Source: a virus. Taken from it: a stretch of DNA of 22,803 bases. Made by a program: the position numbers and the translations under genes. The notes under the pieces were generated by a model. The model did no database searches. It was not told where the DNA came from and was given only the letters and a program-made list of their open reading frames with translations. Where the stretch lies: IMG/VR virus record IMGVR_UViG_3300033141_001493, positions 1-22,803 of that record. One strand, written 5' to 3'. Of this stretch, positions 3,365 through 22,604 are shown in pieces (position 1 is the stretch's first letter; every line of letters begins with the position of its first letter).

Positions 3365-3727
3365 ATGCTAATTTCTGTCTGTAAAATCTTCAGGTTCGAT
3401 GCTGCTCATTGGCTGCCAAACTATGAAGGTAAATGTGTAAATCTGCACGGACATTCCTGGACTTTAGAAGTAGAATTAGAAGGTCCAGTAGATTCTTGGA
3501 CTGGGATGGTTACCGACTTTGCTTCTCTTAAGGACACAGTGGTAAACTTGGTAATAAGCAAGATAGACCATACCTGTCTTAATGACTTTATCCACAATCC
3601 TACTTGTGAGAATCTGCTTGACTGGATCTTAATAGAACTAGACCCTATATTTAACCAGAATACTAGTCCGAGGATGAAAAGGCTACGACTATGGGAAACT
3701 CCAGACAGCTATGCAGAGATATCTTAG
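3365..3727 (+). CDS. queD: 6-carboxytetrahydropterin synthase QueD
   Basis: QueD converts 7,8-dihydroneopterin triphosphate to 6-carboxy-5,6,7,8-tetrahydropterin, the second step to 7-deazaguanines. At 120 aa it has the usual length. Zinc ligands are visible as H15 (DAAHWLP) and H28/H30 (LHGH), with the catalytic Cys24 in EGKCVNLHGH. VTDFASLK (about 49-56), the DHTCLND segment (about 69-75), and the C-terminal WETPDSYA containing the pterin-binding Glu are all present. The ATG follows GAGAGGA. It lies between the nuclease and the helicase, away from queE and the dpdA-like gene, so it is a phage-encoded copy, probably for DNA modification and not host tRNA queuosine. Confidence 0.93.
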   Translation: MLISVCKIFRFDAAHWLPNYEGKCVNLHGHSWTLEVELEGPVDSWTGMVTDFASLKDTVVNLVISKIDHTCLNDFIHNPTCENLLDWILIELDPIFNQNTSPRMKRLRLWETPDSYAEIS

Positions 3728-4762: not shown

Positions 4763-6808
4763 TTGACTACGAGAGAATTAACTAGATTCAGCAGTAATGC
4801 TAATACAGTTTTATGTAAAAGATACTTAAAAAAGGGATCTGAATTCCCTAAATGTCTCTTATGTGGTGAAAACCATGAGACTCCAGAAGAAATGTTAGAG
4901 AGAGTCTCATTTGGAAATATAGACTTCTATAACCTAATGGCAAAGCTAGACTTTCTACCTATGTCTACTACCTTATTTAATGCAGGAATAGAAAAGACAG
5001 GAACTCTCTCAGGTTGTTTTAAGTTTGATGTAGAGGATAGTATGGCTGGAATCCTAGAAGTGGAAAGAAAGTCTGGACTGGTCCAGAAGTGGGGAGGAGG
5101 AGTAGGTTATTACTTGGGTAATATTCGAGCCAAAGACCAACCCATTAAGTCTACTCATGGCAAAGCCTGTGGTCCAGTCTCTTTACTATACTTCTACCAA
5201 GCTCTAGCTAATCTAATTACTCAAGGAGGGAAAAGAGAAGGAGCTCAAATGGCAGTTCTTCCTTGTTCCCATCCAGATATCCTAGAATTCATTAACTGCA
5301 AGGTAGACCATCCACAACTACTAGATACTTTTAATATCTCAGTATCCTGTACTGACGAATTCATGGCTAAGGCTAGAGACTTTCCAGAATCTGAAGAGTC
5401 TAAACTTCTAGATAAAATGGCCCAAAATGCTCACAGTAATGGAGATCCAGGTATATACTTTGTAGACACTGCAGAAAGATCTAATCCTACTCCTTACTTA
5501 GGAAAATTGACTGGCACCAATCCTTGTGGAGAGGTACCCCTGCTAGATAATGAGCCTTGTAATTTAGGGTCTATAAATCTGGCAAACTTTGTAATAGAAA
5601 CAAACTCTAAACCCATAAATGGAGATAGGACTGGACCTACTATTAAAGGGTTTGACTTTGATAGACTAAAAGTAGTTACTAAACTAGCAGTAGACTTTCT
5701 AGACGAAATTCTAGACCACAATTCTTTTCCAGATCCAGTAATAACTAAGGCTGCTCTAGCTACTAGAAAGATAGGCTTGGGTGTTATGGGGTGGGCTGAT
5801 TGCTTGGCTTTATTAAATATCCATTATAACTCAATGGAAGCTGTAGACCTTGCTATCAGAGTAATGGAAACTATCCAAGGTGCAGGATTAGAAGAGTCTA
5901 TTAAGTTAGGAAGAGAAAAAGGGGCTTATCCAGAAAGTCAGGATAGAATAGAGAGAAATGCTACAGTAACCTGTATTGCTCCTACAGGCTCTATATCAGT
6001 GCTGGCAGACTGTTCCTCTGGAATAGAACCTCACATTGCTTTAGAGTATACTATCCATATGGGAGATGGAACTCTCCTGAAAAGAAAGATCTCAATCTTA
6101 GATAAATGTAAAGGTTTTATCCCCAAAACTGCTTTGGAAATTCCATGGAAATGGCATATAGATCACCAAGCAGCCTTTCAGGAATATGTGGACTTAGCTG
6201 TGTCTAAGACTGTAAATCTTCCTAAGGATAGTCCAGTAGAAGTAGTTAGAGATATCTATATAGAGGCTTGGTCTAGAGGATGTAAAGGAGTTACTGTTTA
6301 TAGAGAGGGAAGTAGACTTATACAAGCCATATCTATAGAGGAGTCTGGACCCTCTAAAGCTTTTCCAGAGGATACTTACGAGGCTAGAGTTCATAGATTT
6401 AGAATAGGGGATATGAAGGGATATCTACATTGGGGACTTCAACCTAAAGATGGTAAACCAGGTGAACTTTTTATTACTGCTTCAAAGCAAGGATCTACTA
6501 TTGATGGACTGTTAGATGCTATTGCTATTCTAGTTTCAATCTCACTTCAAAGTGGAGTTACTTTAGGAGAATTGGTAGATAAGTTAAAAGGTAGACGTTT
6601 CGAGCCTGCAGGTTTTACTAGTAGTAAAGATATTCCAACTACTACATCTATCCTAGACTATATAGCAAGATATGCAGAACGGACTTTCCTAGAAACTAAC
6701 TCTACTTATCACTCTGGAATGTTCTGTCCTGACTGTTCTTCTGAAGTAATCAACCAAGAAGGTTGTATGGTTTGTACTAGTCCAGAATGTGGATGGTCGA
6801 GGTGTTAA
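4763..6808 (+). CDS. nrdJ: Class II (adenosylcobalamin-dependent) ribonucleotide reductase NrdJ
   Basis: NrdJ reduces ribonucleotides to deoxyribonucleotides with a radical from adenosylcobalamin, supplying dNTPs in the cytoplasm without oxygen dependence. Visible motifs: C85 (TLSGCF) and C266 (PCNLGSINL) as the redox pair, and NPCGE (253-257) with the catalytic Asn, thiyl Cys255 and Glu. TVTCIAPTGSIS (401-412), a TSCPD-type domain at about 545-645, and a Cys-rich C-terminus (655-681, six Cys) follow. No ATP-cone is seen, so overall activity control by dATP is not expected. The start is TTG with GGAGG upstream, two bases after the helicase stop. At 681 aa it is near the usual NrdJ length. No separate small subunit is present, as expected for class II. 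The host must make or import B12. Confidence 0.94.
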   Translation: MTTRELTRFSSNANTVLCKRYLKKGSEFPKCLLCGENHETPEEMLERVSFGNIDFYNLMAKLDFLPMSTTLFNAGIEKTGTLSGCFKFDVEDSMAGILEVERKSGLVQKWGGGVGYYLGNIRAKDQPIKSTHGKACGPVSLLYFYQALANLITQGGKREGAQMAVLPCSHPDILEFINCKVDHPQLLDTFNISVSCTDEFMAKARDFPESEESKLLDKMAQNAHSNGDPGIYFVDTAERSNPTPYLGKLTGTNPCGEVPLLDNEPCNLGSINLANFVIETNSKPINGDRTGPTIKGFDFDRLKVVTKLAVDFLDEILDHNSFPDPVITKAALATRKIGLGVMGWADCLALLNIHYNSMEAVDLAIRVMETIQGAGLEESIKLGREKGAYPESQDRIERNATVTCIAPTGSISVLADCSSGIEPHIALEYTIHMGDGTLLKRKISILDKCKGFIPKTALEIPWKWHIDHQAAFQEYVDLAVSKTVNLPKDSPVEVVRDIYIEAWSRGCKGVTVYREGSRLIQAISIEESGPSKAFPEDTYEARVHRFRIGDMKGYLHWGLQPKDGKPGELFITASKQGSTIDGLLDAIAILVSISLQSGVTLGELVDKLKGRRFEPAGFTSSKDIPTTTSILDYIARYAERTFLETNSTYHSGMFCPDCSSEVINQEGCMVCTSPECGWSRC

Positions 6809-8171: not shown

Positions 8172-8573
8172 ATGAGTTGGACAGAGGAAGAATTAGATCT
8201 AGTTAGCAACTTCTCTGGAGTAGGAGGGTATTCCTATCTTACTAAAAGACTTGGCAAGAGCAAAAATGCTATAAAGTTATTTTGCTGCAGGCATGGTATT
8301 AGACTTAGTGATAACATTTATACTTCTAAGCTCTTGGGAAAGGAGTTAAATAGAGAATCTAGGACAGTAAGAAAATGGAGACTTTTAGGTTGGATAACTG
8401 GAACCAAGTCTACATGGGGACTTAACTATGGAAAGGTTACTTATGTCTATAGCGAGAAACAGATAGTTAAGTTTCTTAGACAGTATTACTTTTTATTCAA
8501 AGGGACCGTTATTCCCAATCCTTATTTTAGAAACATAGTAAAGGAGTGTAACAATGGCTTTAAAGGTAAATGA
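8172..8573 (+). CDS. Small HTH DNA-binding protein
   Basis: The likely start is the ATG at 8172, one base after the lipoprotein stop; an upstream in-frame TTG at 8157 is less likely. The 133-aa product begins MSWTEEELDLVSNFSG, a SANT/Myb- or GcrA-like opening (Trp plus acidic helix). A helix-turn-helix follows (LTKRLGKSKNAIKLFCCRHGI, about 24-44), then a second putative HTH with a MerR-like wing (GKELNRESRTVRKWRLLGWI, about 56-75). It is basic overall, so a transcription factor or DNA-binding architectural role is likely. It overlaps queE by 20 bp, which couples their translation. The specific target is unknown. Confidence 0.6.
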   Translation: MSWTEEELDLVSNFSGVGGYSYLTKRLGKSKNAIKLFCCRHGIRLSDNIYTSKLLGKELNRESRTVRKWRLLGWITGTKSTWGLNYGKVTYVYSEKQIVKFLRQYYFLFKGTVIPNPYFRNIVKECNNGFKGK

Positions 8574-9264
8574 AATCTTCTATTCTCTTCAAGGAGAAGG
8601 CCTTCTAACAGGAACTCCTACAGTCTTTATTAGACTTCAGGGTTGCAATTTGTATCCAGATCGGTGTTGTGTTTGGTGTGATACTTCTTATGCCCAAGAA
8701 GTAAATTCGGGGTTGGAAATAGCGTCTAAAGACATAGTAGAAAAGTGCATTAACCTTATAGGAGATCCTACTAATTTCTGGGTCTGTATTACAGGAGGAG
8801 AACCCTTACTACAAGAAGAAGATTTATTTATTCTAGTAAGAGACTTAAAGTCTCGAAGGTTCAAGGTTGAGATTGAGACCAATGGTACAATAACTAAGCC
8901 TAGATGGTGGACTAGAGTAAATTCCTGGTCAGTAGATCTTAAATGTCCTTCTAGTGGGGTTTCTGATCTAGCCTTAATTAAAGATTGGATAGACATTAAA
9001 GCTGAAGACCAGATAAAGTTTGTGGTAGGAAGTAAAGAAGACTTAGCTTTTGCTAGAAGAATAATTCAGGACAGGTCTAACAAAAATCCTACAGTGTTGG
9101 TCAGTCCAGTGGCTAGACTACTCCATAAAACTAACCTTGATGAAGATTCTGTAGGATGGGACCAGGACTGGCTTCAGGAAGTTGCAGAATTTTGTAAGGA
9201 TACGAAAGTTAACTTCTCTCTACAACTTCATAAACTAATCTGGGGAAACAAAAGAGGAGTCTAG
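8554..9264 (+). CDS. queE: 7-carboxy-7-deazaguanine synthase QueE (radical SAM)
   Basis: QueE rearranges 6-carboxytetrahydropterin, the QueD product, to 7-carboxy-7-deazaguanine with S-adenosylmethionine and a 4Fe-4S cluster. The opening EIFYSLQGEG (7-16) and TPTVFIRLQGC are diagnostic. The cluster cysteines lie in residues 31-42 with a longer spacing than the usual CX3CX2C: C31, then C39 and C42 in CVWCDT, with an extra C38. The SAM-binding TGGEPLL (80-86), VEIETNG (105-111), SVDLKCP (126-132) and the C-terminal LQLHKLIWG are present. The size, 236 aa, is normal. It overlaps the HTH gene by 20 bp and ends in the structured region 9265-9525. It may feed the dpdA-like enzyme for DNA modification. 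Confidence 0.93.
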   Translation: MALKVNEIFYSLQGEGLLTGTPTVFIRLQGCNLYPDRCCVWCDTSYAQEVNSGLEIASKDIVEKCINLIGDPTNFWVCITGGEPLLQEEDLFILVRDLKSRRFKVEIETNGTITKPRWWTRVNSWSVDLKCPSSGVSDLALIKDWIDIKAEDQIKFVVGSKEDLAFARRIIQDRSNKNPTVLVSPVARLLHKTNLDEDSVGWDQDWLQEVAEFCKDTKVNFSLQLHKLIWGNKRGV

Positions 9265-12432: not shown

Positions 12433-12573
12433 ATGGCAGGTGAATTCAAAAGAGTATTAAAGAGAGCAGGCCCTCCTGTTCGGAGATTCCTTAAAGATAT
12501 GAATAGAGGATTAAGAGATTACTCTACTCCTAGTAGTCCCCATAAAAAGAGAAGGAGGCGAAAAAGTAGATGA
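12433..12573 (+). CDS. Small highly basic protein, 46 aa
   Basis: A 46-residue ORF begins MAGEFKRVLKRAG and ends HKKRRRRKSR. It has about 18 Lys/Arg residues, so it should bind nucleic acid or an acidic partner. AATGGAGGTAAAG lies upstream of the ATG, and the stop overlaps the dpdA-like start as ATGA, with that gene's AGGAGG inside it. The tight link to the transglycosylase suggests a possible accessory DNA-binding protein for base exchange. This is inference. Confidence 0.55.
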   Translation: MAGEFKRVLKRAGPPVRRFLKDMNRGLRDYSTPSSPHKKRRRRKSR

Positions 12574-13304
12574 AGGCAGGTATTATAGCACCTATCTCTT
12601 TGCTAGACTACTACTCTGGATTTACTAATTACCATGTCTGTAATCCAAAACTTCTAATAGAAAGTCAAGACTACTTAAATTTCTATTTGGGAAGAAAAGC
12701 TTTGGGAAACTTTCTAATAGTAGATTGTTCTATTACTGAGCCTAGAGAACCTATAAATTCTACTGACTTGATTACAGCTCTTACTCTACTAAAGCCTAAT
12801 CTGGTAGTTCTTCCTAATTCAGATATGAATACCGAGAGAACTCTTTCTCTTACCTCAGGATTTCTAAATTTGTATAAGAGAAGTCTAGACCAACTAGATG
12901 TTGGATTTATAGGAATGGTTCAGGGAGCTACTATGAAACAGTGTATCTTTTGTAGTAAGGTTCTTAGTAAGATGGTAGATAGTCTAGGACTTCCCAGAAG
13001 TATGGAATCCTCAGTAGACAGGACAAAATTTCTTAAGGAAGTACAAATAGATCTTCCTATTCATATCTTTGGAATTCATTCAAGTCCAGAAGTAGAAATA
13101 GACAACTTGCTTAGTCTAGAAATGGATAATATAGTAGGTATATCCTCTGATTTGCCAGTAAGGCTAGGATTCTTGTGTAGGCTATTAGATGAGTATAGAC
13201 CTGAACCTCCTCCACTAAACTGGTTTACAACACATAATCCTTTTCCAGACTTCACTAAAAAGAATGTAGAAGAATTCATTTATCTTGCAGAGGGAGAGTA
13301 TTAA
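12570..13304 (+). CDS. dpdA: DpdA-like transglycosylase (phage TGT family) for 7-deazaguanine in DNA
   Basis: DpdA enzymes swap guanine in DNA for a 7-deazaguanine base, by the chemistry of tRNA-guanine transglycosylase. This 244-aa protein is shorter than cellular TGT (about 370), like some phage forms. TGT-like features in order: an LIVDCS strand (49-53) with an acidic residue, VVLPNSD (79-85), VGFIGMVQG (111-119, matching the GIVQG loop of TGT), IHIFGIHSSPEVE (164-176, matching the GLxxGEP-like loop), and GISSDLP (191-197) with a possible nucleophile Asp195. The C-terminal zinc site of TGT is missing. It overlaps the small basic gene by 4 bp and the next zinc-ribbon gene through TAATG. With queD and queE present it completes a modification route. 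Which base is inserted is unknown. Confidence 0.75.
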   Translation: MKAGIIAPISLLDYYSGFTNYHVCNPKLLIESQDYLNFYLGRKALGNFLIVDCSITEPREPINSTDLITALTLLKPNLVVLPNSDMNTERTLSLTSGFLNLYKRSLDQLDVGFIGMVQGATMKQCIFCSKVLSKMVDSLGLPRSMESSVDRTKFLKEVQIDLPIHIFGIHSSPEVEIDNLLSLEMDNIVGISSDLPVRLGFLCRLLDEYRPEPPPLNWFTTHNPFPDFTKKNVEEFIYLAEGEY

Positions 13305-16178: not shown

Positions 16179-16604
16179 ATGAGAAGACATCCCATACCAG
16201 TAGTAGCAGCTTGTATAGTAAATGAAGATAATGTTTCAGTTCTACTCCACAAGAAAAACGAAAGCCATGATGAGAAAGGTATTAAGAGAAACCCTGAGTT
16301 AATAGGTAAATGGGAATTCCCTGGTGGAATGATGGAGGGTAAAGAAACACCACAAGAAACTCTAAAAAGGGAAATGGTAGAAGAACTTAATATAGAAGTA
16401 GACATAGATGAAACTCCAATTTATGCCAACACTTTTGTATTTAAGGACAAAAAACCCTATCTAGTTCTATTCTATCGTTGCCATACTAATTTTCCAACTG
16501 TTCCAGAGGGTTGTATGTATACTGGAATATTTGATACTCTACCAGATAACTTACTACCAGGAGACGGAAAAGTTTTTGAGTACTTAAAGGAGTTTTATTC
16601 ATGA
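16179..16604 (+). CDS. Nudix hydrolase (MutT-like)
   Basis: The Nudix box is complete: GGMMEGKETPQETLKREMVEELNI (about residues 49-72), matching Gx5Ex7REUxEExGU with the final Gly replaced by Asn. The 141-aa protein is a typical single-domain MutT-type enzyme, which would hydrolyse a nucleoside diphosphate-X such as oxidised dGTP, ADP-ribose or a modified dNTP. It begins one base after the thymidylate synthase stop and its end overlaps the HAD gene as ATGA. Substrate unknown. Context suggests dNTP clean-up, or ADP-ribose clearance with the macro-domain protein. Confidence 0.9.
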   Translation: MRRHPIPVVAACIVNEDNVSVLLHKKNESHDEKGIKRNPELIGKWEFPGGMMEGKETPQETLKREMVEELNIEVDIDETPIYANTFVFKDKKPYLVLFYRCHTNFPTVPEGCMYTGIFDTLPDNLLPGDGKVFEYLKEFYS

Positions 16605-17074
16605 GAGTCTGTTGCGATATTGATGGAGTCCTTGCTGATGTTAGATACTATGTAAAGAAGTATTTACCCCATGACTGGGGAGGCTACTTTGGATGTACTT
16701 TACAGTTTCCTACTATTCCTTCTATGAACGAACTAATTCAAAGGTTTGGAGAAGACGAGATTTACTTAGTAACAGGAAGGCCAGAAAGTAATAGATGGCT
16801 AACTGAAACCTGGTTAACCCTTAAAATGCCTTTTCCTAATCCAGCTTGGATACTAAGAATGCGTAAAGATGAGGATCACAGACCTGGCTATCAGATTAAG
16901 ATGGAATGGTATAGAGAGATCCACCCAACCTTGGTTATTGATGATGACCCTGAGGTGATAGAAGCTGCTAGTAAAGAAGGCTTCGTTGTTCTCCAAGTCC
17001 ATGGATATAGAATAACTACTATAGATATGGTACCAGATACTAATTATAAGAGGGGGGGAATAGATTGTGCCTAG
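16601..17074 (+). CDS. HAD-family phosphatase
   Basis: HAD motifs: DIDGVLAD (6-13, nucleophile D6 and acid-base D8), VTGRPES (57-63, motif II Thr), basic residues around RMRKDEDHRP, and LVIDDDPEVIEAA (motif IV acidic pair, about 111-123). The layout resembles the 3'-phosphatase domain of T4 polynucleotide kinase and small nucleotidases, without a kinase part. It may remove phosphate from a nucleotide or from nucleic acid ends. Its start overlaps the Nudix stop by 4 bp and its end overlaps the APRT start by 8 bp. Confidence 0.8.
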   Translation: MRVCCDIDGVLADVRYYVKKYLPHDWGGYFGCTLQFPTIPSMNELIQRFGEDEIYLVTGRPESNRWLTETWLTLKMPFPNPAWILRMRKDEDHRPGYQIKMEWYREIHPTLVIDDDPEVIEAASKEGFVVLQVHGYRITTIDMVPDTNYKRGGIDCA

Positions 17075-17678
17075 GAATTCTGATCCACTTAGAAGAGGTC
17101 CTTACTTTAGTAAGAATAGACATGTAGGAATGTTTCCAGTCCAACCCCCTCCACTTTCTATAGAAACTATTCTAAGAAACCATATTATAGATATTCCTGA
17201 CTTTCCTGAAGAAGGAGTTACTTTCAAAGATATTACTCCTCTTCTCCAGAGCCCAGACAGTTTAAGGCAAGCTATAAACTTGATGCTAAAGTACAATAGG
17301 TATCAAGATATAGACATAGTAGCTGTTTTGGACTCTAGAGGCTTTATTCTGGGAACTCCTATAGCTTTAGACTTAAATGCAGGTCTAGTCTTGATTAGGA
17401 AATCTGGAAAACTACCTAGACCTACTCTAAGCATGGACTATACTTTGGAATATGGTTTAGCAAGTATTGAAGTTCACAGAGATGCTATATCAAAAGGTCA
17501 AAAGGTATTATTAGTTGATGATGTTCTAGCTACTGGAGGCACAGCTAAGGCAGCAATCAATCTCATACAGTCTTTAGGAGGCCAGATAGTTAGAGCTCAA
17601 TTTCTTCTGGAATTAGACTATCTACATGGACGAGATCTTTTAGATATACCGATACAATCTGTACTTCACTATAGATAG
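17067..17678 (+). CDS. apt: Adenine phosphoribosyltransferase-like enzyme
   Basis: APRT makes AMP from adenine and PRPP. The match is close: DIPDFPEEGVTFKDITPLL (37-55), the DSRGFILGTPIAL loop, the flexible YTLEYGLASIEVHRDAI segment with the catalytic Glu, and the PRPP-binding VLLVDDVLATGGTA (145-158). It has an extra basic N-terminal tail of about 33 residues (from MPRNSDPLRRG). The GTG start is supported by AGGGGGGA upstream. An ATG at 17130 would shorten this tail. It is followed by an SLOG-like gene. Possible uses: salvage of adenine from degraded host nucleic acid or NAD fragments, or transfer of ribose phosphate to a modified purine base. The last is speculation. Confidence 0.88.
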   Translation: MPRNSDPLRRGPYFSKNRHVGMFPVQPPPLSIETILRNHIIDIPDFPEEGVTFKDITPLLQSPDSLRQAINLMLKYNRYQDIDIVAVLDSRGFILGTPIALDLNAGLVLIRKSGKLPRPTLSMDYTLEYGLASIEVHRDAISKGQKVLLVDDVLATGGTAKAAINLIQSLGGQIVRAQFLLELDYLHGRDLLDIPIQSVLHYR

Positions 17679-17695
17679 GAGGACGGCAAGAAAAA

Positions 17696-18148
17696 GTGTT
17701 ATTAGAGAAAATCATTTCTGGGGGACAAACTGGTGCTGATAGAGCAGGCTTAATAGCAGGTAAGCTGTTAGGCTTGAAAACTGGAGGAACTGCCCCTCCA
17801 GGATTTCTAACTGAAAGAGGACCTGAACCTAAGTTACAAAACTTTGGATTGGTAGAAGGTCAACCAGACTCTAGAAAGTATGTAAAAAGAACTATACAGA
17901 ATATACTAGACTCAGACGGAACTCTTATAATGGGGATAACTACTTCTCCTGGATCTACTTTAACTCTAACTATTTGTAGAGAGTATAGTAAACCTTGTAT
18001 CATCAATCCTACTTCTATAGCTCTAAAAGAATGGCTAGACTTAAATCATATTAAGACTCTAAATGTAGCAGGAAATCGGGAGAGTAAGAATCCTGGAATT
18101 CGAGATACTACACTTAAACTTTTAGTATCTGCTTTAGGAGAGAAATAA
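17696..18148 (+). CDS. SLOG-superfamily protein (putative molybdenum-carrier/LOG-like)
   Basis: The opening IISGGQTGADRAGLIAGKLLG (6-26) and TGGTAPPGFLTERG (29-42) match the putative molybdenum carrier/YpsA-like branch of the SLOG Rossmann families, as does ILDSDGTLIMG (about 69-79) and PGSTLTLTICREYSKPCIIN (84-103). SLOG proteins bind or hydrolyse nucleotide derivatives; LOG proteins cleave AMP-type N-glycosidic bonds. SLOG domains also sense NAD-derived signals in bacterial defence proteins. The GTG start has AGGAGGACGG upstream. The stop overlaps the next MazG-like gene by TAATG. Placing next to APRT suggests a nucleotide-base cycle (inference). Confidence 0.72.
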   Translation: MLLEKIISGGQTGADRAGLIAGKLLGLKTGGTAPPGFLTERGPEPKLQNFGLVEGQPDSRKYVKRTIQNILDSDGTLIMGITTSPGSTLTLTICREYSKPCIINPTSIALKEWLDLNHIKTLNVAGNRESKNPGIRDTTLKLLVSALGEK

Positions 18149-18453
18149 TGTATACAGAAATTTTGAAGGAAGAGAACGTAGAACAGACAAAAGACTTTAC
18201 CCTGTCTATTCTAACCTACGAAGTAGGAAATCTTCACCGGTTAAAAGTCTATACAGAAAGATTTGGTAAGGACAGAACTCTCTATTTAGGAGATCAAAAG
18301 ATAGAACTGGCTGATGCTCTCACCCAAATAAGTCTTTTAGTAGAACAGTATGGATACGATCTTGAAGAACTACGAAGTATAGGCTTAGACAGATTTAAAA
18401 CTAGAATAAGAGAAGTAAAAAAAGCAGAACTAAAAGGGAAGTATGGTGACTAA
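18148..18453 (+). CDS. MazG-like NTP pyrophosphohydrolase, 101 aa
   Basis: All-alpha NTP-PPase features: LSILTYEVGNLHRL (19-33, first acidic helix) and KIELADALTQISLLVEQYGYD (51-71, the ELADxLxQ helix with the Asp and Glu ligands). This would cleave an NTP to NMP and pyrophosphate. It is one of three such proteins in the window. The gene starts by TAATG overlap with the SLOG-like gene and is followed 2 bp later by another member of the same superfamily. Substrate cannot be deduced. Confidence 0.7.
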   Translation: MYTEILKEENVEQTKDFTLSILTYEVGNLHRLKVYTERFGKDRTLYLGDQKIELADALTQISLLVEQYGYDLEELRSIGLDRFKTRIREVKKAELKGKYGD

Positions 18454-18455
18454 AG

Positions 18456-18845
18456 ATGAGTAAAGATTGGTATCAAGACATAGTAGACTTCCATAGACTA
18501 GTTATGAGAGATAACTTCTCTACAAAGCCTTATATTCCTTCTCAGAAGTATAGGGATCTTAGGATAAAACTGATTAGAGAGGAAGTAGTAAAAGAGACTT
18601 TACCTGCTCTTGAGAACGGGAACTTAGTAGGAATCGCAGATGGAATTGCAGATAGTATAGTAGTTTTATTAGGTACAGCAGTCACCTATGGAATAGATAT
18701 TAGACCTATCTGGGACGAAGTTCATAGAACCAACATGGCTAAGAAAGATGGACCGATGCGTGAGGATGGAAAGAGACTAAAACCTGAAGGATGGGAATCT
18801 CCTAGAATAGAAGAGGAAATCCGGAGGCAACAAAGTGACTCTTAA
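18456..18845 (+). CDS. Phage MazG-like NTP-PPase (PRA-PH/COG4696 type)
   Basis: The 129-aa protein has LREEVVKET (about 40-48 region, ExxxE helix) and ADGIADSIVVLLGTAVTYGID (61-81, the ExxD/ADGxxD helix), then PIWDEVHRTNMAKKDGP (84-100), which is the signature of phage phosphoribosyl-ATP-pyrophosphohydrolase-like proteins. It should hydrolyse a nucleoside triphosphate or related compound. AAGATG lies after the neighbour stop by 2 bp. Its end overlaps a small membrane protein gene by 11 bp. Possibly clears unwanted dNTPs or a signal such as ppGpp, as argued for MazG in phages. Confidence 0.82.
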   Translation: MSKDWYQDIVDFHRLVMRDNFSTKPYIPSQKYRDLRIKLIREEVVKETLPALENGNLVGIADGIADSIVVLLGTAVTYGIDIRPIWDEVHRTNMAKKDGPMREDGKRLKPEGWESPRIEEEIRRQQSDS

Positions 18846-19008
18846 CGAAATTGGTACACTAGTACTCATTGCATTACCAACAATGGTCTATCTTTTTCTT
18901 TGGACTAGACACGACTTAAAAATTAAGAGAGGTCATACTCTGTATGATCCAAAGACTGGAAAGAAAGTAAGTAACTTTGGTGACTGGTTAGATGGAAAGG
19001 AGAAATAA
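18835..19008 (+). CDS. Small membrane protein, 57 aa
   Basis: A 57-codon ORF opens with GTG, preceded by GGAGG. It reads VTLNEIG, a hydrophobic helix (TLVLIALPTMVYLFLW) and a charged tail with KIKRGH and a DPKTGKKV segment. It overlaps the upstream gene by 11 bp and the downstream ATG by one base (TAATG). Both junctions and the ribosome site support it. Function unknown. Confidence 0.55.
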   Translation: MTLNEIGTLVLIALPTMVYLFLWTRHDLKIKRGHTLYDPKTGKKVSNFGDWLDGKEK

Positions 19009-19376
19009 TGAGACAAAGAGCTAGTTGGTGCAGTGAATCTGGAACGACAGGTACTCCTTACACTTCCTTTAAACAGCTCTTCCGAATTAGAAGAAATAAC
19101 TCTAGAAAGAACTTTGGAGTAGGGCTTGCTCTGGGAGCTACCTTTCTTGAATGGAGTAACGAACTTCTATGGAATGACCTTTTTACTGTCTTCTATGGAA
19201 AGTACCCTGATGGATATTCTAGAATAGTTTTCTCCCCCCTAATTTTACTTTGGGGACTACTAATAGGAACTATAAGTATAGTTGGATCCAGTTTAACTAT
19301 AATCTTCCTTGGACTATCCCTTCTATGGAGTTTACTTCTAGAACTTCCTTCTGACTTCTTAAGAGGTGAGATGTAA
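19008..19376 (+). CDS. Small membrane protein, 122 aa
   Basis: A basic, Ser/Thr-rich N-terminal 60 residues precedes hydrophobic segments at about 75-95 (FSPLILLWGLLIGTISIVG) and 97-115 (LTIIFLGLSLLWSLLLEL), so two TM helices are likely. Translation is coupled to the preceding gene by TAATG. The end lies one base before the DUF1848 gene start. No family is recognised. Confidence 0.5.
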   Translation: MRQRASWCSESGTTGTPYTSFKQLFRIRRNNSRKNFGVGLALGATFLEWSNELLWNDLFTVFYGKYPDGYSRIVFSPLILLWGLLIGTISIVGSSLTIIFLGLSLLWSLLLELPSDFLRGEM

Positions 19377-19377
19377 T

Positions 19378-20148
19378 ATGAATAAACTACTAGTAGCCTC
19401 AGAGTATACCGAGCCTTCTTTCCACATGCTCAGAATCCTTAAGGCTCTAGAAGACTCCAAGAAGCTTGCTATCAGATGTGGTCTTCTTCTTATTACCAAG
19501 AATATCTCTGGATCTCTGCCTATCTGGGTAAAGGCTAGGGAACTAGACATTCCAACAGTCTTCCATGCGACTATCACTGGATTAGGTGGAACGACTTTAG
19601 AACCTTCGGTTCCGGATTGGAAGAAATCTTGTGGGGGCTTAACCCTTCTAATGGAGAGAGTAAAAGACCCTAGAACAGTAGTTCTAAGAATAGACCCTCT
19701 AATTCCTGAAGTAACAGTAGATTTCTCAGTTATAGACACTATAGTAGGGCATGCTTTCGAACTAGGTATTACTAGAGTAAGAACCTCGGTTATCGACTAC
19801 TATCCCTTCGTAAGAAAGAAGTTTAAGACATACAGTATTCCTCTTGCGGGTACAGGATTTCAGCCAGACTTTTTAGATAAGTATAACTTACTTAAGACTC
19901 TAGCAGAACTAGTAGTTGGAAAGTATGGAATGTCTCTGGAAGCCTGTGCAGAAGATATTGAGATTCCTGGAATGACCAAAGTAGGTTGTGCCAATAGAGA
20001 GGAATGGAAGAGTCTAGGCTTAGACTTACCCTTAGGAAGTCCAAAGAGATGGTCTTGCTTCTGTAATACTCCAAAGTATGACTTGCTACCTAAAGAGACT
20101 ACCTGCAGATACAATTGTTTGTATTGCTACTGGGGACGGAATAGATAA
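19378..20148 (+). CDS. DUF1848-type radical SAM protein
   Basis: The ATG at 19378 is preferred over an in-frame GTG at 19366. The 256-aa protein fits DUF1848. It begins MNKLLVASEYTEPSF and has a TIM-barrel-like middle with FHATITGLGGTTLEPSVP (62-79) and VLRIDPLIPEV (102-112). Then comes SLEACAED (186-193), and the C-terminus CFC plus CX3CX2C (C243, C247, C250 in CRYNCLYCYWG). That last motif is the radical SAM cluster site at the far C-terminal end, the known oddity of this family, whose reaction is undetermined. It is coupled to the polymerase gene by TAATG, so a DNA-related or nucleotide-modifying role is possible. Confidence 0.8.
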   Translation: MNKLLVASEYTEPSFHMLRILKALEDSKKLAIRCGLLLITKNISGSLPIWVKARELDIPTVFHATITGLGGTTLEPSVPDWKKSCGGLTLLMERVKDPRTVVLRIDPLIPEVTVDFSVIDTIVGHAFELGITRVRTSVIDYYPFVRKKFKTYSIPLAGTGFQPDFLDKYNLLKTLAELVVGKYGMSLEACAEDIEIPGMTKVGCANREEWKSLGLDLPLGSPKRWSCFCNTPKYDLLPKETTCRYNCLYCYWGRNR

Positions 20149-22604
20149 TGACTGAACCTAATTGCGGTGAATGTCCCTTAAAGGGAAGTCCTCAAGTTTG
20201 TGGAGAGGGTATTTGGATAGAAGAAACTACTTCTGAACAGAGAGACTCTGCCAATCCTGAGCTATTACTAAAGTTGGTTCATCAGGTAAAAGAGCAAAGA
20301 GATTCTTATAGAATAGTTATGGCTGGAATGGCCCCTGCTAATGATGAAGTAGCTCAAGGAAGGGTGCTTGTAGGAATCTCTGGAAAGATCTTAAAAAGTC
20401 TTTTAGTAAAGTTAGGATATAGAGAAGTTTATCTTTGTAACTGTCTTCTTTGTCAGATTCCGGATAGTTTATCTGATAGAGATAGAGCTTTGGCAGTTAA
20501 ATGCTGTAGTTCTAGATTTGTAGATGAGATAAAGTCTAAGAAGCCTGAACTGATAGTTGCTATGGGAGCTATGCCTATGGAACAACTAATAGGCAATTAT
20601 TCTATTATTAGAACTGCAGGAAGAGTATTTCCTACTGACTTTACTGTTCACAAGATTGCTCCTGCAGTGTCTACAATTCATCCTGCCTTTGTTTGGAGGA
20701 ATACTGAAGTATTTTACGACTTTGTAGAACAACTACAATCTGGACTAAGATGGTTAGAAGGCTCTTACCAAAGTGCTGTTGCTCCTAAATGGATAGTAGC
20801 AACCTCAGAAAATATAGATGAGATTTTAGATACTATTGAGAAAGGTACAGTAGGAGCTATTGATTTAGAAACTACTACAAATGGATTTTATCCTTATGGA
20901 CATGACCCAGATAAAATTAGGTGTATAGTAGTATCTCTAGATACCAAAACTTCTTATATTATTCCTGGATTTCACTGTGCAAAAGATAATCCTTACTGGA
21001 ACCAATGGACTGGGGATGAAATAGAGTATGAAAACCTTCTATTCCATCCTAGACTAAAACCAGTATTGGAAAACTTTCCTTACTGGAGAACTCATAATGG
21101 ACAATTCGATTGTGGATTCTTACTCCAAATTGGCATTAGCATTAAAATAGCCTTTGACTCTATGCTAGCTTCTTATACTACTGATGAAAGAGAGTTTGCC
21201 CACTCTTTAAAGAAGATTTCCCACAAGTTTCTAGGAGCACCTGACTGGGAAGATGATATTAGACTGTATACTACCAAAAAGAAAGACTCCTATGACAAGA
21301 TTCCTAATAGTAAACTATTTGAGTATGCAGCCCATGATGGAGTGTATACTAACCAGATATCTGAGAGACTAGAAGGAGAAGTAGTTACTAACTGGTGCTT
21401 CAATAATATCCTTATGCCTTCTGCTAATATGTTTAATGACCTTAGACACAGAGGACTTAGAATAAATCCTAGACTTCTAATGAGTTTGGACTCAAAGCTA
21501 GAGGATGAACTATCTAAAGGTTTGGACGAGCTAAATGACCTTGTAGGAGAACCAGTAAGTCCTACTTCTCCTAAAGAAGTAAGTGAGTTACTATATGATA
21601 AATTGGGATTTCCTATCAATAGAAAGTATGGAAGATCCTCTGGAAAGAAAGCTATATCCGCTTTTTTACCTAATCCAATAGTTGAGAAGATCCTAGAATG
21701 TAGATCTCTTAGTAAGATGAAAAATACCTATGTGGAAAGTCTTGCTAAATTTATAGATCTAGACATCAGAATTCATCCTTTCACTAAGTTGTTCTCTTCT
21801 GTTACTGGAAGAATCTCTACTGAAGATCCCTCAGTAATGAATGTAGTAAAAAAGGGAGGTATAATGAACCTATACCTTCCAGATAAGGGACACCTACTGG
21901 CAGCTTTAGACCAGGGACAGATGGAAATGAGGTGTGGTGCTCTTGTAACTGAAGATGAAGTGATGAGACAAATACTACTAGATCCTACCAGAGATCCTCA
22001 TAGAGAGTGTGCAACTTTCGCTTTCGGAGCAGATAGAGCAGCTGAGAAAAGAGGTAGTATTAAAACTGTAGTATTTGGAACATTCTATGGACGAAGCGTA
22101 GACTCTATTCAATATGCTCTAAAACTTACTAGACAAGAAGCCTTAGATCTGGTAGAACTAGTAAATAGTTTCTTTCCAGGCTTACATATATACCAAACTA
22201 GAATAAAGAAAGAATTAAGAGAAAAAGGTTATCTGGTTAGCTACTTTGGACGGTATAGAAGATTTGGGCTAATAACTAGAGAAAATGTAAGAGAGTACGA
22301 AAGACAGGGATTTAACTTTCCAGTCCAGTCCATGGCTTCAGACATTAACCTTCTATGTATGATAAAGCTCTATAATATGAGATATGAAACAGGGGCAATG
22401 CCTTTGTGGCCTATCCATGACTCTATTATCTTTGATATCCAGGATACTTCAGTAATCCCAGACTTAAAGAAGATAATGGAAAAGTATTCTGAAGAATTAG
22501 TTGACCATAGGATGAAGTTTATTGTAGAGGCAAAAGTAGGAGAGAATTGGGGAGATGCTATGGTCTGGAAGGAAGAAGGTGATGGTCTGGAAGGAAGAAG
22601 GTGA
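20148..22604 (+). CDS. Family A DNA polymerase with N-terminal UDG-like domain
   Basis: This 818-aa replicative polymerase has three parts. First, a family-4 UDG-like domain (about 1-205): Fe-S cysteines C6, C9, C102 and C119, a VLVGISGKIL helix and IHPAF (177-181). Its GEAPG catalytic motif is GMAPA. Second, a 3'-5' exonuclease (about 230-410): IDLETT (D239/E241), HNGQFD (D321), YAAHDGVY (D397). Third, a polymerase: TGRISTEDPS, motif A LDQGQMEMR (D588), motif B RGSIKTVVFGTFYG (K639, F643, Y647), motif C IHDSII (H757-D758-S759). UDG-polymerase fusions are known in SPO1-like phages. Phe643 suggests normal discrimination against dideoxynucleotides. A 22-bp duplication lengthens the C-terminus from ...KEEGD to ...KEEGDGLEGRR. 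Confidence 0.93.
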   Translation: MTEPNCGECPLKGSPQVCGEGIWIEETTSEQRDSANPELLLKLVHQVKEQRDSYRIVMAGMAPANDEVAQGRVLVGISGKILKSLLVKLGYREVYLCNCLLCQIPDSLSDRDRALAVKCCSSRFVDEIKSKKPELIVAMGAMPMEQLIGNYSIIRTAGRVFPTDFTVHKIAPAVSTIHPAFVWRNTEVFYDFVEQLQSGLRWLEGSYQSAVAPKWIVATSENIDEILDTIEKGTVGAIDLETTTNGFYPYGHDPDKIRCIVVSLDTKTSYIIPGFHCAKDNPYWNQWTGDEIEYENLLFHPRLKPVLENFPYWRTHNGQFDCGFLLQIGISIKIAFDSMLASYTTDEREFAHSLKKISHKFLGAPDWEDDIRLYTTKKKDSYDKIPNSKLFEYAAHDGVYTNQISERLEGEVVTNWCFNNILMPSANMFNDLRHRGLRINPRLLMSLDSKLEDELSKGLDELNDLVGEPVSPTSPKEVSELLYDKLGFPINRKYGRSSGKKAISAFLPNPIVEKILECRSLSKMKNTYVESLAKFIDLDIRIHPFTKLFSSVTGRISTEDPSVMNVVKKGGIMNLYLPDKGHLLAALDQGQMEMRCGALVTEDEVMRQILLDPTRDPHRECATFAFGADRAAEKRGSIKTVVFGTFYGRSVDSIQYALKLTRQEALDLVELVNSFFPGLHIYQTRIKKELREKGYLVSYFGRYRRFGLITRENVREYERQGFNFPVQSMASDINLLCMIKLYNMRYETGAMPLWPIHDSIIFDIQDTSVIPDLKKIMEKYSEELVDHRMKFIVEAKVGENWGDAMVWKEEGDGLEGRR
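22560..22604 (+). repeat. Perfect 22-bp tandem duplication at polymerase stop
   Basis: 22561-22582 is repeated exactly at 22583-22604. Because 22 is not a multiple of three, the second copy changes the frame and the stop, giving the tail DGLEGRR in place of the single-copy ending EGD with its TAA. The next gene starts 3 bp later. Third non-triplet perfect tandem duplication in this window. Confidence 0.95.

Follow-up and report, generated by a model that had tools for sequence, protein, structure and literature searches.

The DUF1848 gene and its neighbors

The window analyzed here is a 22.8-kb fragment of an IMG/VR viral contig, and at positions 19378..20148 of its plus strand lies an open reading frame for a protein of 256 residues, with start and stop as given in the initial annotation. 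A Shine-Dalgarno-like sequence, AGAGGTGAG / GAGGTGAG, could be read on the same strand at 19363..19370, about 7 nt before the ATG, and an in-frame GTG at 19366, which would add four residues, was judged less likely as a start than the ATG at 19378. The earlier identification of the product as a DUF1848 protein was borne out by Pfam, where PF08902 matches residues 36-251 with an E-value of 2e-18 and 67.6 bits against a gathering cut-off of 30.5, and neither PHROGs nor NCBIfam gave a match for this protein. Bacterial members carry an N-terminal SxSRRTD segment that is absent from the window protein, which has VASEYTEP there instead, and the viral clade described below differs likewise. Because the Pfam match starts after that segment the PF08902 HMM does not require it, and its absence is the mark of a subfamily rather than an exclusion from DUF1848.

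Directly downstream, at 20148..22604 on the plus strand, lies the gene for a family-A DNA polymerase (Pfam, PHROG 17), whose product joins an N-terminal uracil-DNA-glycosylase (UDG)-fold domain (PF03167, 2.7e-10) to a 3'-5' exonuclease and a polymerase domain. The two genes overlap by 1 nt in a TAATG junction, from which coupling to the replicative polymerase had been taken as a clue to function. The overlap itself is there, but we reject the functional link, because overlaps are ordinary in this window, in which neighboring genes overlap or are separated by no more than 5 nt at 19 of 32 junctions, four of them with an overlap of exactly 1 nt, and because the linkage is not conserved. In the nearest relative of the window gene, on a phage contig that we refer to as L179 (46% identity), the polymerase gene is found ~12 kb from DUF1848, and no family-A polymerase was found in the records L047 and L048, both of which have terminases. 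Moreover, no neighboring gene family was conserved, or recurred at a fixed distance, across the viral DUF1848 loci.

Elsewhere on the plus strand the window encodes QueD (3365..3727) and a QueE with the canonical N-terminal radical SAM arrangement (8554..9264), both identified by Pfam, NCBIfam and PHROG, as well as a DpdA-like transglycosylase (12570..13304). While QueE stands as first annotated, the DpdA-like assignment comes from weak tblastn matches to the Flavobacterium phage DNA guanine transglycosylase (1e-5), and close relatives of this protein were not found. The window also holds a QueE paralogue at 1550-2077 (28% identity, BLASTP E 1e-11) that is without the radical SAM cysteine loop, and for which there was no match in Pfam, NCBIfam or PHROG and no relative in the viral contigs. 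A class II, B12-dependent ribonucleotide reductase, NrdJ (4763-6808), has a relative in the L179 contig, and a circularly permuted YpsA SLOG-family protein (17696-18148, 9.5e-33) is 55% identical to its counterpart there.

Conserved residues and the predicted barrel

The CX3CX2C motif that had been pointed out in the DUF1848 protein is present at C243, C247 and C250 (codons spanning 20104-20127), with C250 six residues from the C-terminus. Together with Y249 and Y251 it makes up the sequence CRYNCLYCY (20104..20130, plus strand), which homologue alignments lead us to predict as a radical SAM cluster loop and which aligns with residues 76-103 of spore photoproduct lyase (SPL, SplB). We followed these positions through 49 aligned homologues, 29 further bacterial sequences gathered by HMM without requiring the motif, and 23 short-form sequences, mostly viral, a few of which are shared with the set of 49. 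None of the 101 rows examined departs from the seven cysteines or from the two tyrosines of CxxxCxYCY, and since the CX3CX2C is kept in all three sets we do not regard it as a chance occurrence. The four additional cysteines, C190, C204, C227 and C229 (19945..20064, plus strand), may form a second Fe-S cluster or a structural metal site; these four, along with Y249 and Y251, had been overlooked in the initial annotation. A further group of conserved residues, K41, T65, E75, R104, D106, S137 and Y142 (19498..19803, plus strand), lies on the barrel strands, and in the 49 and 29 rows all are invariant except K41, which is nearly so. The same conservation holds in the 23 short-form rows, apart from T65 in one of them.

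An AlphaFold2 model of the window protein, built from the 49-row alignment, has a mean pLDDT of 87 and a pTM of 0.89, with the C-terminal tail (last 30 residues) less sure at pLDDT 52-77, and a model of a bacterial DUF1848 protein reached 94.9 and 0.91. Both models are partial barrels. As Foldseek's own ranking mixed in many TIM barrels we relied on a second look with VIA-align, in which radical SAM proteins or their domains filled the first 16 rows for the window model and the first 23 for the bacterial one. The window model matched pyruvate formate-lyase (PFL) activating enzyme (PFL-AE) best (Z 10.0 over 165 residues), and the bacterial model matched MqnE (Z 9.9), a PFL-AE domain (9.8) and HemN (9.5), as well as Elp3, RlmN and HydG, and aligned with SPL from its residue 134 onward (Z 9.1, 175 residues, 3.3 Å, 17% identity). 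The partial (β/α)6 barrel of the radical SAM superfamily is thus found in the models, at modest Z. In a separate observation, the DUF1848 model has a strong BFVD match (TMq 0.75, E 8.6e-12) in entry A0A7M1RU68_5, a piece of a large protein from the crAss-like phage cr272_1, which suggests that the large protein contains a DUF1848-like domain.

The register of these alignments is shared among the targets, in that residue 1 of the window model pairs with PFL-AE 65, SuiB 151, LipA 97, NifB 80 and HemN 104. With the cluster motifs at C29-C36 in PFL-AE and C90-C97 in SPL, the alignments begin only after the target's own motif, so the DUF1848 chain begins at what is usually the second strand, β2, and the usual first piece is missing from that end. 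Residues 1-12 (19378..19413, plus strand) are the strand structurally aligned with β2, through PFL-AE 65 for the window model and SPL 134 for the bacterial model, and the alignment columns place E9 of the window protein where SPL has its H-donor Cys140. This position is Arg in 70 of 78 rows of the first two sets and Glu in all 23 of the short-form rows.

Unrelated TIM barrels also reached Z 7-8, compared with ~9-10 for radical SAM proteins, and because this margin is modest we sought independent evidence by comparing a DUF1848 profile with one of 30 SPL sequences in hhalign, using 40 column-shuffled decoys. In native order there were two local matches, in swapped order: DUF1848 residues 242-267, with the cluster loop and its preceding strand, matched SPL 76-103 (P 4.6e-4), and residues 72-155 matched SPL 189-271 (P 7.8e-4). 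The best score to SPL was 35, against a decoy maximum of 23. When the C-terminal segment was moved to the front, most cuts from 157 on gave a global alignment to SPL of 203-250 columns with P ~1e-5 to 3e-5, compared with only 104 columns and P 4.7e-4 for the native order. Early cut points did worse, and cuts at 204 and 216, among the extra cysteines, aligned poorly or less well. With a PFL-AE profile the cysteine motif alone was significant (P 5e-4). Sequence-only permutation tests against the PDB and Pfam were uninformative: neither the native window protein nor its permuted copy matched the radical SAM family PF04055, and PDB sequence searches with both found no radical SAM match of note.

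In radical SAM proteins the motif is usually N-terminal, with its loop after the first barrel strand, and in DUF1848 it is C-terminal. With its motif there and its order permuted, the protein is better called a permuted variant than an ordinary member of the superfamily. Taken together, the barrels that align from β2 onward and the SPL profile that aligns at full length only after permutation make a circularly permuted radical SAM core, closest to that of SPL, the most likely identity of DUF1848, and models and profiles thereby support the earlier radical SAM assignment beyond the motif alone. We put the probability that 19378-20148 encodes a radical SAM enzyme with a (β/α) barrel circularly permuted relative to SPL and PFL-AE at a little under 0.8, a figure that covers the enzyme class and the permutation and not the substrate. 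Alternatively, all seven cysteines might bind structural Zn or Fe-S, at a single site or at two, in an enzyme with an ordinary TIM barrel, as their clustering in one C-terminal region and the Z-scores of the other TIM barrels would allow. We find this unlikely in view of the exact CX3CX2CY spacing with two tyrosines, the profile matches to the cluster loops of both SPL and PFL-AE, and a barrel register that starts at β2.

Distribution of the family and possible roles

DUF1848 is a common bacterial family, with members in 37 of the 149 genomes sampled from one clostridial phylum, and contexts elsewhere include sugar cassettes and positions beside methyltransferases on mobile elements; in an uncultured phage of 735 kb, a bacterial-type member lies inside an apparent sugar-modification cassette. 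The window protein belongs to a short-form clade that the tree sets apart from the bacterial members with 100/99 support and that is found on ~20 viral contigs of 25-413 kb, most of them at least 75 kb, as well as on a Ruminococcus albus plasmid and two MAG contigs, which may be mobile themselves. Direct searches with the window protein matched no GenBank phage and no viral contig, and the viral relatives were reached only with subfamily alignments. In one of these (L181, 7989-8758) the short-form protein appears as two adjacent ORFs of 128 and 125 residues, possibly split or frameshifted. In the large phage L048, genes at 16304-20342, 6-10 kb from DUF1848, read as nicotinamidase, PRPP synthetase, nicotinamide phosphoribosyltransferase and a NADAR-NadE-like fusion, and would make up an apparent NAD salvage cassette.

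A single further window-type DUF1848 was found, that of the nearest relative (E 6e-82), with which the window protein forms a clade with 100/100 support. Its 68.7-kb phage contig, IMGVR_UViG_3300034406_000036 (loci L179, L195 and L196), carries FolE, QueC, QueD, QueE and a TGT/DpdA-like gene, all within ~18 kb. A phrog_850 protein (RNA-binding protein) is encoded there directly after DUF1848. With QueD, QueE and the DpdA-like protein also encoded in the window, DUF1848 might catalyze a further radical SAM step in 7-deazaguanine DNA modification, acting on preQ0 or one of its derivatives, or on the modified base, alongside QueE and DpdA. Such an association holds for the L179 phage but not for the 19 other viral DUF1848 records, several of them fragments, in which a phrog_2076 search gave no full-length QueE match, and the DUF1848 enzyme therefore cannot require the deazaguanine pathway in general. 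QueE-like matches in these other contigs were set aside, since the ones translated looked like different radical SAM proteins, NrdG-like for the most part. Moreover, the genes do not lie side by side, the association concerns two phages only, and these share further genes (NrdJ, a thymidylate synthase-like gene and the permuted YpsA), so that co-inheritance explains the co-occurrence, and a role in this pathway seems to us improbable.

We think it similarly doubtful that the protein repairs nucleic-acid lesions on phage or host DNA as SPL does, by direct radical reversal. Among radical SAM families it is SPL that shows significant profile similarity over two segments, its Tyr pair is conserved here, and the DUF1848 gene adjoins that of a polymerase with a UDG-fold domain; however, the SPL catalytic Cys is replaced, by Glu in the viral clade and Arg in bacteria, the family's contexts are not repair operons, and SPL-like folds may act on other substrates.

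Membership of a phage-host or element-element conflict system, as defense or counter-defense, is likewise suggested by several associations. The PADLOC model PDLC03815 ('RTasDUF1848', listed under DRT) matches the window protein (1.6e-15), and on gut-bacterial mobile elements a methyltransferase-like gene lies directly upstream of about ten DUF1848 members. Three of four such partners tested match PADLOC PDLC01079, both proteins are listed by PADLOC as defense-associated, and R-M and recombinase genes lie nearby. One such partner (L050, 8320-9750) has an N-terminal stretch weakly resembling the RnlA toxin (PF15935, 1.1e-5, just under the cut-off). However, PADLOC labels denote association and not function, the methyltransferase-like partner was not found in the viral short-form clade, and reverse transcriptases were found neither among the window proteins scanned (a subset of the ORFs of a fragmentary contig) nor in the L047 record, with the single one in the L048 record ~14 kb from DUF1848. 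We give a conflict role little weight.

Proposed mechanism and comparison with known systems

The permuted SPL-like core that we favor would run from the β2-equivalent strand through the rest of the partial barrel, then through the four extra invariant cysteines, and finally to β1 and the CX3CX2C. Conservation, predicted fold and swapped order are the part of this model that we observe. C243, C247 and C250 would hold a [4Fe-4S] cluster, with SAM bound at its free iron, and most likely SAM is cleaved with this C-terminal cluster, upon one-electron reduction, to a 5'-deoxyadenosyl radical that would abstract hydrogen from the substrate. Y249 and Y251 would stand at the positions of the SPL tyrosines for SAM-adenine contact and radical relay, and C190, C204, C227 and C229 may hold an auxiliary cluster. 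Kinship with SPL and the replication and nucleotide-metabolism context of the phage favor a nucleic acid or nucleotide as substrate, a guess to which we would give about one chance in three. A fuller reading, in which large phages have acquired, as a distinct clade, a naturally permuted core with a second invariant cysteine set, and window-type phages use it for a new radical reaction that modifies or repairs DNA or nucleotides containing deazaguanine, strikes us as a long shot.

In the literature searched, of partial coverage, we found no mention of DUF1848 or of a permuted radical SAM core, and no biochemistry of the family. The Pfam text for DUF1848 already remarks that the C-terminal cysteines resemble a radical SAM motif; the permutation, the seven-cysteine set and the viral clade are new here. 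Searches of the very large radical SAM superfamily nearly always look for the cluster motif close to the N-terminus, which is why standard models such as PF04055 miss the permuted core. If confirmed, our assignment would add a widespread enzyme family, from the clostridial genomes to the viral contigs surveyed here, together with a precise active-site model, and it would mean that the fold survives the cutting and rejoining of its cluster loop.

Compared with the bacterial DUF1848 proteins, the viral ones share the HMM match, residues T65, E75, R104, D106, S137 and Y142, the seven cysteines and Y249 and Y251, and differ in lacking the SxSRRTD (E9 being invariant instead), in ending a few residues after the motif and in forming their own branch (100/99). 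With the PADLOC RTasDUF1848, or DRT-associated, systems the window protein shares the HMM match, while neither a reverse transcriptase nor a methyltransferase partner was found beside its gene among the proteins scanned. We take ThiC to resemble DUF1848 in combining a C-terminal Fe-S motif with SAM radical chemistry, and to be unlike it in that its barrel is complete and its motif, CX2CX4C, is housed in a domain of its own. In PFL-AE the CX3CX2C is N-terminal, and outside the motif there is no significant sequence similarity to DUF1848. The closest comparison is with SPL, which shares barrel strands in register from SPL 134, the TK and EP motifs, the CX3CX2C with YCY, and the profile similarity. 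Yet in DUF1848 the cluster motif is at the opposite end of the chain, Cys141 (B. subtilis numbering) is replaced and four extra invariant cysteines are present, and because the H-donor Cys has given way to Arg in bacteria and to Glu in all viral short forms we conclude that DUF1848 is not SPL. The Tyr pair of SPL, Y97 and Y99 in B. subtilis, is matched by the invariant Y249 and Y251 of DUF1848, and in SPL one of the two contacts the adenosyl group of SAM and the other relays the radical (PMC3742179).
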